A DNA stretch of 60,000 nucleotides from Bolinopsis microptera (Eukaryota; Ctenophora; Tentaculata; Lobata; Bolinopsidae): the NCBI RefSeq assembly GCF_026151205.1, contig NC_087075.1, positions 12,944,303 through 13,004,302 on the forward strand, written 5' to 3'. Under the pieces are notes generated by a model that was given only the letters and a program-made list of their open reading frames with translations, had not been told where the DNA came from and did no database searches. Shown piece by piece: positions 6,277-15,200 of the stretch; the first letter of the stretch is position 1, and every line of letters begins with the position of its first letter. The position numbers and the translations under genes were made by a program.

Positions 6277-9200
6277 ATGCCTGATCATTTGGGGTCCGAC
6301 ATGAGGAAGGTTAAGGATGAGCCCGAGGAAGAGAAACCAATTCAGAGTGAGTAGAGCACTTCACAACTCCTTTAGAATATTCTAGAATTGGTTTGAAATC
6401 GGTATACATACCACTTCTCTTCATTGTGATAATTAACATCTAAATATTGAAAAATGTTAAGATCTTCGAAAATGGTCTTAAGACGCCACATCAACTTGCC
6501 ACGACGTTATAATTATTGACCACCCCACTAATATAGTGATTTGATACTTTGTGATACATGTGTGATGATGTTATGTCATAATTTTTACTATACTTTACTT
6601 TTACTAACAAGTCCCCTATTCTAGCTCTTGATGCGGGAGACATAGCCCTCCTAAAAACATACGGTGTGGGACCATACACAAACCAGATAAAACAAGTAGA
6701 AGCAGATATTCAGTCCCATGTGAAGAAAGTCAACGAGCTCATCGGTAAGATACATCTGCTATTTTCCCTTCTACAATTATTATGCTGTATGAGATTCTGG
6801 AGAGGTTCGCTGTTTATCAGTCTCATGATAAGATAATGATTCCAGGGATGATATCCGGTAGTAAAGACTATGTAGGAAAAGTGAAACTACTGTTTAGGAG
6901 TCCTAAACAGTAGTTTCACTTTTCCTACCTAGTCTCTACTACCGGATATTTTCCCTTCTACAATTATTATGCTGTGACACAACAATATTGCTTGCTATAG
7001 TGCCGTTAATTGTGGTTTATCCAGAGAAACAGTATTTGTGAATGGCATTTTAGAATTTGGAACTAGAGCCTTTCGATAAAATAATTACTGCTCGTGCTAA
7101 ATTAATATTACCTAATCGTCTCGACTATGGCTTATTGGCTTTGGTATATGTCTGGTAACATTTTTCTCTAATAAATTTGACTACAAACATCGGTCGGTTT
7201 CTCTAAATGTTACACTCTGCAGGTATTAAGGAGTCAGATACAGGACTAGCTAACCCTGGTTTCTCTAAATGTTACACTCTGCAGGTATTAAGGAGTCAGA
7301 TACAGGACTAGCTAACCCTGGTTTCTCTAAATGTTACACTCTGCAGGTATTAAGGAGTCAGATACAGGACTAGCAAACCCTGGTTTCTCTAAATGTTACA
7401 CTCTGCAGGTATTAAGGAGTCAGATACAGGACTAGCTAACCCTGGTTTCTCTAAATGTTACACTCTGCAGGTATTAAGGAGTCAGATACAGGACTAGCAA
7501 ACCCTGGTTTCTCTAAATGTTACACTCTGCAGGTATTAAGGAGTCAGATACAGGACTAGCTAACCCTGGTTTCTCTAAATGTTACACTCTGCAGGTATTA
7601 AGGAGTCAGATACAGGACTAGCTAACCCTGGTTTCTCTAAATGTTACACTCTGCAGGTATTAAGGAGTCAGATACAGGACTAGCTAACCCTGGTTTCTCT
7701 AAATGTTACACTCTGCAGTAGCCCGGTTCATAAAACAAAAATATTATCCAATAATTGCGGCAATAGGCTTATCTGTTGTTCCTTAGGCCAAATAACTACC
7801 AAAAAAATTTGGAAGCTTCAACTCCAACCGGAAACACCCCCACATGCCACGCCCATTTTTTTCATCAATTTTTAACAGGTAAAAATCTTCATATCATCAA
7901 TTTAGGCATGAAGGAGTGCTTTTAGTGCTCCAACAGTTTGGGGTCTAATAGTAATGGTAGAAAAAGGTTAACTTTAGTCAAAGTCTCAAGTCTCCACGGC
8001 GCTTGGTTTAGGCGCACCGGATCTCGCGTCTCCGCCTCCGCTGCGTGATTGGTAGCCCCAGAACTAAAGGTCGTAGAGACATGAGACTTCAACTAAAGTT
8101 AACCTTTTCCTACCATTTATATTAGAGTAGCACAGATTCAGAGCTCTTAACACATTCCTTCATCCTTAAAACGACAATCATATGAATTTTGCCTGTAAAA
8201 GTTGATATCTTGATGTCAATTAACATCGTAAGCTTTTGAAACTAAATTAATTAAATGAATCATATTACTTCACACAATATTTACACACAATATGAAAATA
8301 TAAATACAGGAAGTCTTTCTTGGATTCCACGTCTCCACACCCTGGAACTGTCAGAGGTAATAACAGTCTTTTATTAATAATCCAACAATCATATTATGAA
8401 TCTTTTCAGTTGAAACTTCGTTGGTTGCATTGTGTTGCAAAATTTCTTGCATTACAATGCTAGCGAAAACAAACATTACTGGGGGAATTCGCCCTCTTCC
8501 AAGCTCTCTTACAATGAAGTCGCATTCCGGAGACTAATGTTTATGAATGAGCAGTTTGTGAATTTATATACTGCTGTTGTCACTGTCGAGAACGAGCTGG
8601 TCGAGTATTGGGAATATGCCAGCTATGGCATCATCCTACAGAAGAACGCAAGCATACCGTGGAGAGTTTCCCCTCTTCATGAATCCTACAAGAATTTAAC
8701 AAATATTCCCCCATCTTGGAGAGGGAATCAGTCCTTCAGCTTCAAGAAAATCAGTTTACAGAAGAGATTCATTTAGATTTTAGATCCATTACTGATAACT
8801 TGGTAAAGGAATTAGAACCAGATGCTATTTTGTTAGCTAATGCTTGGATATTTATAGTTATTTACTTAACTTGGTCTTGACGTATCAGTAAGAGATTACT
8901 GTACCTCGTTAGTCACGAAGAAATCATCAGACCTTATTAATAGTGATCGGTGACCCTGTCAGTGACGAGCTATGAAGGAAGCATTGGATCTCATTAATAA
9001 TGATCCTGTCAGTGACGAGCTATGAAGGAATTATTGAACCTCATCAATGCTGATCCTATAGGTGACGAGTTATAAGGAAATAAGGACCTCATTTAAATCC
9101 TAGTTTGACGAAAATATTCCTCTGGCAACAAAATTCCTTTTGGCAACGAAGATTAGACAGCTTGCTTGTGAAGACATGGCGATTCGAAAACCAGGGTACC

Positions 9201-12200: not shown

Positions 12201-15200
12201 GGAGTCAGATACAGGACTAGCTAACCCTGGTTTCTCTAAATGTTACACTCTGCAGGTATTAAGGAGTCAGATACAGGACTAGCTAACCCTGGTTTCTCTA
12301 AATGTTACACTCTGCAGGTATTAAAGAGTCAGATACAGGACTAGCTAACCCTGGTATGTGGGATTTAGCGGCAGACAAACAGACCCTCCAGGGAGAACAA
12401 CCTCTTCAGGTAACCCAGCTACTCTTAATTGATTAATTAATTAATTAATTAATTAATCATTCTTAAAGCTGTTCATGTGCCTGATTCATTGTTATATCTA
12501 AGCCTCTGTAGTCTGTAGGTACAGTAGGTACAATGGTTTTTAAAGCTTTGCAGGTCCCCTAGAATTTGTTGGATTTATAAAGGCCTTGGAATATACTGCT
12601 TAACTTATACATATCTCATAGTCTTACATACGTTTGCAATAGCAATCTATACTTAGGCCTGAGGGCCTAAATATAGTAGTTTTTAATAGTTCACTGACTT
12701 GATTTAAACTTCCTTTACACTTTACAGCTGCCCCCCCCCCCCCTCCCACAGCTTGAGAAGCATCTTTAAATAATTGAATAACTTGATAATAACATAATGC
12801 CAATTGCCCTGTAAATTTAATTCTGATATTATTATATATATATATAATAAGCTCATGATTTTAAGTCTGCGGCCCAGTTTAAGAACGTGAAATATATTTT
12901 GGTATGACATGGTATCCCTACACCCATCTCAGCAGCATTACAGCTAGTAAATAACAACTAACAATCTGTTAAACTGATTTAATTCTGTGATTTACATTCT
13001 GTGATATAAATTCTGGGGGGGGGGGGGGGGGGGGGGCAACCATATTAAAGTATATTAAAGTATATCCCCGGGTCAAAATCGGAAAAAATCCTACATTTTA
13101 ATATACTTTAATATACCTACAATTAGAAGATTTATATTCTTCGTTAAGATTTACATGATGAACTATATTTTTCACTCAGATTCGCAAGATAAGCCTGTTT
13201 TAGGACTAGTACATGAATTTCCATCCAGATTGGTCAAAAATTGGCTGAGCTATGAGCTTAAAAAATATGCCCATATTTGGGCATACGCTTTTGCTCAAAT
13301 TCGCTTTTGCCCAAATTCGATAAAATTTCAATATTTTTTAATGAGACTAACTCTATGTGAAAGATATAACTCAGTGTTTGTTGAATATAGTGGATACTAA
13401 GTAAAAAGACCTCCATGAACAAAATTGGGAAAATTGCACATAATATCTCGGTTCGGAATACTAGCCAAAATTACTTCATTAAAATTGAAATAACTCCATC
13501 AGTTTTCAATATTTTTTCAAGAACTTTTTGGAATCGATTAAGAATTGCATTGCAAGCTTATTTTGGGCAACAATTTTTGATGTAGGCCTCCAAGGAGGTA
13601 GGGATATATTAAAGTATATTGTAGGTATATTAAAGTATATTAAAGTATATCCCCGGGTCAAAATCGGGAAAAATCCTACATTTTAGTATACTTTAATATG
13701 GTTGGCCCCCCCCCCCCCCCCAATTCTGTGATTTAAATTAGTAGTTTAAGTTATAGTGAGATATATGATAACTTGTTTGTGTGTTTCTGATCTAACCAAC
13801 GCGTAGCTTGTTATTAAGATGCTCTATTTTCAAACTTGCTTGCCACTCTGTTTGCGGCTCTATATATTTTGGAAAATAATTCTCACTCTACAGTCTACGT
13901 TTTCATTTTTACTTCTGTACTGCTTAAGTTGTCGAGATATTGTTGGAAAACTTCCATTGTCTTAATTACATTCTAGATTAACTCGATAGAAGTTCTTACT
14001 CTATTACTTGTAGATTTTCGTTAATATAGTGGCTGCCTCAACATTAAGCCTCGCTAAATCTCGCACCCAATCAATACCCCCGCAACATTAAACCTCGCCT
14101 ACACAGGTAGCCAGGTGCACAAAGATAATAAACGCAGAAGGAGAAGACGCCAAGTACATAATAAATGTCAAGCAGTTTGCTAAGTTCGTGGTAGATCTAG
14201 GAGACAGAGTAGCCCCCACGGATATTGAGGAGGGAATGCGAGTAGGGGTAGATAGGAACAAGTACCAGATTCACATTCCTCTGCCGCCCAAGATTGATCC
14301 TACAGTTACTATGATGCAGGTATTTTCTTGTAGCACTGCTTTGCGTAATCTGGTGGATTCGTGTAGTGTTATTAAGTCTCATGATTTGATAGTTTTTCAT
14401 TCAAATTTCTATTTGTTTCTGAATAGATGCAGTGAAGACAGATTATATTTCCATTAGATTCTGTCTTCACTGAGTCTATTCAGAAACAATCAGGTATTTT
14501 CTTGTAGCACTGCTTTGCTTTCTAAAAGTATGTGACTTCTTTAACTTGACTTCTTTAATGTACAATAACATGGTGTGCCTTTTTAGATTATTTATTCTTC
14601 TCGAAGGATTTGAAATGCATCTGATGATTGCAAATTCGAGTTTGATCCGAAATCAATGATCATGTTATAGTTGGAATGTTCCTAAAATTAAACAATTTGA
14701 AAATTAGAACAAGCATTGCATTCTAATCCTAACTCTCGGACAATAAGCACGTAACTTCCAATGTTACCCTATACGATCATCATCACGGCAGTGCTGTTTC
14801 CTTTCTCAAACTATGAAAATTAGGACCCCCACTATTTTCCTGATGGTTTTCGAGTTTCATAAAACAACATGTTCCGAACAGGTGGAAGAGAAACCGGATG
14901 TGACTTACAATGACGTGGGTGGATGTAAGGAACAGATTGAGAAACTTAGAGAGGTAATTGTTTGTTTTTATACAACTAACCGTTTATGGTCATTTACTGA
15001 TAGCTAATAACCATATACAATGGTAATTGGCTGAACAAATGTTATTGACTGACTGCCGTCTAGTTGTTAAAAAAACTAATTTTAGATCACTTGGCACTTG
15101 TCCAGAAATATTCGACTCTATTAGTCTACTACATCATATCATGTAACTTAAGAGTCACATTCAGTTCTGAAACATGTAACATTTAACATTTAACATTTAA

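Follow-up and report, generated by a model that had tools for sequence, protein, structure and literature searches.

Tandem copies of a splice acceptor and exon start precede an exon of PSMC2 in the ctenophore Bolinopsis microptera

A stretch of 60,000 nucleotides (nt) of the Bolinopsis microptera genome, hereafter called the window, contains the complete PSMC2 gene, whose third coding exon is preceded by a long array of near-identical copies of its own acceptor and first bases. The array consists of 48 units of 62 bp at positions 7196-12354, each made of 27 nt of the end of intron 2 and 35 nt of the start of exon 3; the last unit is the real exon start, and the others are decoys. The same architecture recurs, with unrelated units, in other genes. 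The favoured reading, to which we assign a probability of about 0.7, is the expansion of a minisatellite across an intron-exon boundary, with the last copy being used because it is attached to a complete exon (exon definition). Coordinates of all these features are collected in Table 1.

The gene model, in which exons were located by motif and by eye, comprises 12 coding exons at 6277-42697 and translates into a protein of 433 residues, where AAA and PRS7_OB domains were found. Over residues 1-433, this protein has a gapless alignment to 12bm_A, the best PDB chain, which is named 26S proteasome regulatory subunit 7; this confirms the gene name proposed by an earlier note on this DNA; the exon 2 donor, placed by the same note after position 6744, was also found in the gene model. 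Introns 2 and 6 measure 5,573 and 25,037 nt, respectively. The gene is apparently single-copy and intact. A truncated PSMC2 was rejected, as exons 7-12 were found beyond the 25-kb intron 6, and so was a second copy providing exon 3: among the matches listed for exon 4 in the genome assembly (G000), one is full and the other is partial, with 36% identity.

Cutting the array at the unit start yielded 46 uninterrupted decoys, a ninth unit interrupted by about 2.16 kb of inserted DNA, and the real exon start. The earlier note had counted about 47 acceptor copies at 7196-12352, an observation that was confirmed, and its division of the 62-bp unit into intron and exon parts agrees with both the cutting and the gene model. 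Tandem Repeats Finder (TRF) reported 8.4 copies at 7196-7718, with 99% matches, and 39.8 copies at 9881-12355, with 98% matches, in line with the 8 and 39 copies, separated by a transposon, that had been noticed. Minisatellites consist of highly identical head-to-tail units, each about 10-100 bp long, as does this array, at 62 bp and 98-99%; the duplicated segment holds an intron end, an acceptor and an exon start, and is therefore a tandem duplication crossing a boundary. The trinucleotide GGT is common to both ends of the segment. Such an array cannot be due to chance.

The consensus sequence is found exactly in 28 of the 46 uninterrupted decoys. Eight kinds of variants are scattered along the array: T56A (nine decoy units, plus the right half of unit 9), A19T (three units), two 2-bp insertions carried by 5 of the 46 decoys (CT in three units, AC in two), and four single changes. 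Only the last unit, the real exon start, has AAA instead of AAG, a synonymous difference. The mean pairwise difference among uninterrupted decoys is 0.83 variants per unit, which supports the view, already expressed, that the array is young or homogenised. Neither higher-order repeats (no lag with an excess of matching variants, p = 0.79) nor an excess of repeated variant blocks (p = 0.39) were found within it, by comparison with 5,000 shuffles. All the 23 matches listed for the unit in the 264.65-Mb assembly sit at the PSMC2 locus, and its being a dispersed repeat was rejected. Elsewhere in intron 2, an inverted repeat at 6761-6976, with direct copies of roughly 27 nt on either side, was observed by eye.

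The insertion within unit 9 behaves as the transposon it had been taken for: its arms are 97.5% identical over 611 columns, a target duplication is present, and its first 301 bases have at least 38 matches elsewhere in the genome, with 96-99% identity. Since it sits inside a unit, and the target duplication is unit sequence, the transposon is younger than the array. Insertion duplicated CTCTGCAG, leaving an AG on either side of the element, and the acceptors upstream of the real one are therefore 48. The element is of the foldback type and, because near-identical copies abound in the genome, was probably active in recent times.

Exon 2 was joined in silico to each of the 49 acceptors, and the products were translated. 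The PSMC2 protein was obtained from the last acceptor only, whereas the upstream ones led in 48 cases out of 48 to a stop after 70 to 92 residues, located at least 989 nt ahead of the last exon junction. The frame shift and the stops predicted by the earlier note were thus borne out, and functional PSMC2 requires the last acceptor, since all the others reach an early stop. Skipping exon 3, which is 92 nt long, would shift the frame too. The coding sequence produced through the last acceptor is gapless with respect to PSMC2, so that a new intron position is not needed. Coding logic and the integrity of the protein point to the last acceptor as the one that would be used.

The strength of the decoys was evaluated by using splice site matrices built from this genome, with 160 acceptors and 175 donors whose positions a heuristic had assigned. 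The consensus decoy acceptor lies at the 96th percentile of the 160 acceptors and is the same as the real one over the last 20 intron nt and the first 3 exon nt, in agreement with the equivalence that had been claimed for these sites. A plausible branch point, a pyrimidine stretch and CAG/G (the slash marks the junction) are present in each unit; a branch-point-like CTAAC, recognized by eye, is seen in the exon part of most units. By these scores the decoys do not appear to be weak sites and look as good as the real acceptor, in which case context must decide the choice. Folding of the RNA as a way to hide the decoys was rejected, as region 12105-12409, which takes in the final four units and what remains of exon 3, does not fold better than its shuffles (z = 0.17; 54 of 100 fold equally well or better).

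According to the proposed explanation, the array would have started when a segment extending across the 3' splice site of intron 2, with GGT at both ends, was duplicated in tandem, and expansion and homogenisation would then have enlarged it, as in other minisatellites; the genome is rich in such repeats, and they repeatedly cross acceptors. The transposon would have been inserted into unit 9 after array growth. The last copy would be chosen as the sole one bordering a complete 92-nt exon with its own donor, while transcripts joined to earlier copies would hit a stop and be removed by nonsense-mediated decay, the decoys thus being mostly silent.

Comparison of all 12 PSMC2 exons with the window revealed a second decoy array, at exon 11, whose start is copied at 42166 and again at 42270, each decoy running into a stop. 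No exon-end copies at donors were found in this comparison; two short hits elsewhere (17 and 19 nt, with E values of 0.03-0.05) are probably due to chance. In order to extend the analysis to other genes, 205 of 450 counted matches to six families, from 153 loci, were sampled, the Ras family being drawn among the matches listed. The sample was chosen by the analyst, who gave preference to short partial matches; some matches with stops, contigs likely to be alternative haplotypes, a tandem Ras cluster and long matches within a single exon were excluded. The positions of acceptors and donors came from a heuristic, which gave no usable candidate for 8/205 acceptors and 1/205 donors. Self-BLAST, excluding simple repeats of period 1-4, identified 8 of 197 acceptors spanned by a local repeat with copies upstream (95% interval 1.8-7.8%). 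These cases, with an E2-enzyme gene reaching 74 tandem acceptors, and PSMC2 exon 11 do not support the uniqueness that the earlier note implied.

In the E2-enzyme gene (L116) the E2 sequence is given by the last acceptor only; in the exon piece tested, a stop is reached from 72 of the 73 decoys, and the last decoy shifts the frame without reaching any. The last acceptor makes an intron of 3,557 nt (C12:14320466-14324022), and the first would make one of 126 nt. The unit of another E2-type gene (L113) is in frame and stop-free, and the use of its decoys would insert 15-residue repeats into the protein. For the Ras-superfamily gene L016, the duplicated exon part is probably 5' untranslated, and the stops of its decoys therefore mean little. 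The insertion inside the degenerate array of L059 is one that we take to resemble a tRNA-derived short interspersed element. The regions of L036 and L042, both Ras-type, are near-identical, lie about 0.4 Mb apart in opposite orientation on G000:C5 and have the exon-start copy in common; they represent either an inverted duplication or a misplaced haplotype.

Table 1. PSMC2 exons, acceptor arrays and inserted transposon in the window, followed by loci of the genome sample with copies of an exon start
Feature	Position	Strand	Description
PSMC2 coding exon 1	6277-6346	+	gene model, full-length translation
PSMC2 exon 2	6625-6744	+	donor TCG/gtaaga
Left array part	7196-7718	+	8 whole 62-bp units, then first 27 nt of unit 9
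Transposon within unit 9	7719-9881	.	8-bp target duplication CTCTGCAG, read from sequence
Right array part	9882-12354	+	remainder of unit 9, decoys 10-47, unit 48 (real acceptor and exon start)
PSMC2 exon 3	12318-12409	+	92 nt, attached to last acceptor; donor CAG/gtaacc
PSMC2 exon 4	14107-14319	+	donor CAG/gtattt
PSMC2 exon 5	14882-14953	+	gene model
PSMC2 exon 6	15306-15399	+	gene model
PSMC2 exon 7	40437-40518	+	gene model
PSMC2 exon 8	40641-40741	+	gene model
PSMC2 exon 9	41080-41172	+	gene model
PSMC2 exon 10	41347-41515	+	gene model
Exon 11 decoy array	42145-42358	+	104-bp unit; two copies of acceptor + 25 nt of exon 11
PSMC2 exon 11	42359-42458	+	gene model
PSMC2 exon 12	42602-42697	+	gene model
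L116, E2-enzyme gene			47-bp units, 74 acceptors; 64/74 copies exact (fuzzy search)
L151, Arf-type			47-bp unit, 7 decoys; no GT after AG
L113, E2-type	G000:C1:19561998-19563350		45-bp unit, 6 decoys with AG + 3 more copies with AT
L118, E2-type			63-bp unit, 2 decoys
L050, Rab-type			40-bp unit, 2 decoys + one more exon-start copy
L016, Ras-superfamily			34-bp unit, 7 decoys
L036, Ras-type			a single exon-start copy 139 nt upstream; shared by L042, same gene elsewhere on C5
L059, Rab-type	G000:C12:9992157-9994124		degenerate 14-bp unit, insertion inside

Arrays of this kind might also be formed by a DNA or RNA process specifically tied to 3' splice sites, rather than by general minisatellite birth. 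By self-BLAST, no acceptor is spanned with copies downstream (0/197), and donors are spanned in one case with copies downstream (1/204) and in none with copies upstream (0/204), a difference from the 8/197 acceptors that favours such a process (Fisher p = 0.018); adding PSMC2, minus its exon 3, the counts become 9/207 versus 1/215 (p = 0.0096). The difference is not reproduced by TRF, which on the same regions gives 7/197 acceptors versus 4/204 donors (p = 0.37), counts that include weak rows, such as L103 (a donor with a poor donor score) and L027 (an acceptor with 73% matches). Donor-side copies are indeed present in L071 (11-bp unit, 17.9 copies, 79% matches), L068 and L020, although those of the latter two, like L042, do not pass the self-BLAST spanning rule. 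Array coverage is also similar on both exon sides: arrays of period 10 or more, which cover 18% of the window, cover 5-10% of the sequence upstream of acceptors and 3-10% of that downstream of donors, for the sampled exons. Of the points taken 250 nt before the exon match, 12/204 (copy upstream; a figure to which some of these arrays contribute) and 5/204 (copy downstream) are spanned; of those 250 nt after it, 2/205 and 4/205, respectively; and of exon midpoints, 0/205. The bias of acceptors over donors is suggestive; it is safe to state that the rate at which acceptors are crossed (4%) is close to the array coverage of nearby intron DNA, and that none of the exon midpoints was crossed. An acceptor-specific process appears unlikely, and is retained as a rival because the self-BLAST and TRF counts disagree.

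Decoy use followed by decay could, alternatively, be a regulated brake that sets gene output, tuned by array length. The decoys score well as acceptors and end in a stop in 48/48 cases for PSMC2 and 72/73 for the E2-enzyme gene, and two of the gene types concerned, PSMC2 and E2 enzymes, belong to the ubiquitin pathway, all of which would suit a brake. Stops are, however, expected by chance from any frame-shifting unit, the L113 decoys are open, and the kinds of genes affected say little, as the families were chosen by the analyst; regulation of this sort is rather improbable.

The intron could also be removed stepwise, by recursive splicing, if a decoy were joined first and the resulting AG/GT junction served as a new donor, copy by copy up to the last acceptor. 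This is possible in principle, as AG is followed by GT in most units; in this the decoys resemble the ratchet points of recursive splicing (PMC8605326), where the acceptor is directly followed by GT. The unit sequence CAG/GTATTA is close to the real exon 4 donor, CAG/gtattt, and falls at the 25th percentile of the 175 donors, and the junction of exon 10 with an exon 11 decoy, CAG/GTTTGA, falls at the 57th. The junction required at PSMC2 exon 2, TCG/GTATTA, scores instead below all 175 donors, the one of the E2-enzyme gene, GAG/GTTCTC, reaches only the 1st percentile, and GT is absent after AG in the L151 decoy. In having poor-scoring regenerated junctions at both PSMC2 exon 2 and the E2-enzyme gene, the arrays differ from ratchet points. 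Recursive splicing was set aside as the main mechanism because of these weak scores, to which exon 11 is an exception, and is kept as a decidedly improbable rival.

That the PSMC2 array was mis-assembled, or its copy number largely wrong, is very improbable: copy-number errors are usual in tandem arrays, and the count may be off, but an array falsely created is unlikely, given the eight kinds of variants scattered through the decoys, the transposon with its clean target duplication and the arrays of other unit sequences in other genes.

Minisatellite expansion with use of the last copy is thus preferred, and several points weigh against it. Coding logic is the basis for the presumed use of the last acceptor, and exon definition is a putative rule here. 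The first acceptor of the E2-enzyme gene L116 defines an intron of ordinary short length (126 nt), which an intron-definition system would favour. Self-BLAST found fewer cases at donors than at acceptors, which neutral crossing of boundaries would not predict, with TRF giving different counts. Finally, the decay argument fails for L113, where the array is in frame and stop-free. A bolder formulation is offered tentatively, as we consider it rather doubtful: several percent of acceptors would end arrays of their own copies, a near-absolute rule by which the last complete exon wins would pass over as many as 73 equivalent decoys, even where one of them offers a 126-nt intron, and array length may dial gene output through decoy use and decay.

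Other features were observed in the window and in the genome. An (AACATGT)18-type array at 15171-15305 ends a few bases ahead of the acceptor of PSMC2 exon 6 and contains no exon sequence. Within PSMC2 intron 6, on the opposite strand, lies an open reading frame (ORF) for a rhodopsin-family seven-transmembrane receptor (16503-17102, minus strand), and the ORF list includes a similar receptor-like frame at 32951-33295 (minus); nested intronic genes are described for another ctenophore (PMC8527503). At 24803-28985, long 54-bp arrays flank a segment with a FLYWCH-domain ORF (26824-27255, minus), and a second FLYWCH ORF is found at 35172-35471 (plus). An open frame of 1,141 residues at 55966-59391 (minus) contains a reverse-transcriptase domain, has an endonuclease match below threshold and looks like a non-LTR (long terminal repeat) retrotransposon. 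Elsewhere in the genome, a dense cluster of Ras-family matches, many of them spanning nearly the whole domain in one open frame, occupies G000:C1:12425539-12459122.

The arrays provide a natural graded series, from 1 to 73 decoys, which allows a test of splice site choice among identical rivals; in L116 the first decoy lies as near as a short intron would place it, whereas 3,557 nt separate the donor from the real acceptor. They also indicate that the acceptor of an essential gene can be crossed by a minisatellite, a route to rapid change in intron length and splicing and, where the unit is in frame, as in L113, in protein sequence too.

Competition between neighbouring acceptors is known from NAGNAG tandem acceptors and from duplicated 3' splice sites engineered in globin genes, and engineered duplications of two sites have served to study the choice among equal 3' splice sites. 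In those systems the competitors are two sites separated by a few nt, or pairs made by engineering, whereas dozens of natural copies are found here. Each PSMC2 unit holds CAG/GT, as in the model of intron gain by duplicated AGGT segments; in that model duplicated exon sequence becomes an intron, whereas the PSMC2 intron was pre-existing. In C. elegans, a minisatellite is reported to be linked to alternative splicing (PMC4039745). Internal tandem repeats at exon-intron boundaries of human duplicated genes (PMC2812944) are similarly variable and cross boundaries, and they change splicing; they belong to recent paralogues, with novel introns or retained repeats, and the available part of that report describes no long acceptor runs before single-copy housekeeping exons. 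In the open-licence literature, of which a part was searched, no description of multi-copy acceptor arrays, such as those of 48-74 copies, was found among the entries listed, in keeping with the earlier note, which knew of no case on such a scale; single boundary duplications are known (PMC4974935), and the kind of event is therefore not new, while its scale and recurrence were not met in the literature searched. Among the closest cases is the potato RNA-dependent RNA polymerase gene (PMC4974935), which gained an intron through a single tandem duplication across an intron-exon boundary. There, as here, the duplicated segment comprises the intron end, the acceptor and the exon start, with signals inherited from the parent boundary; one extra copy produced a new intron, with a donor derived from the old exon. 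Unlike in potato, a single intron holds 2 to 73 decoys here, and splicing to the last acceptor would leave the coding sequence as it was.

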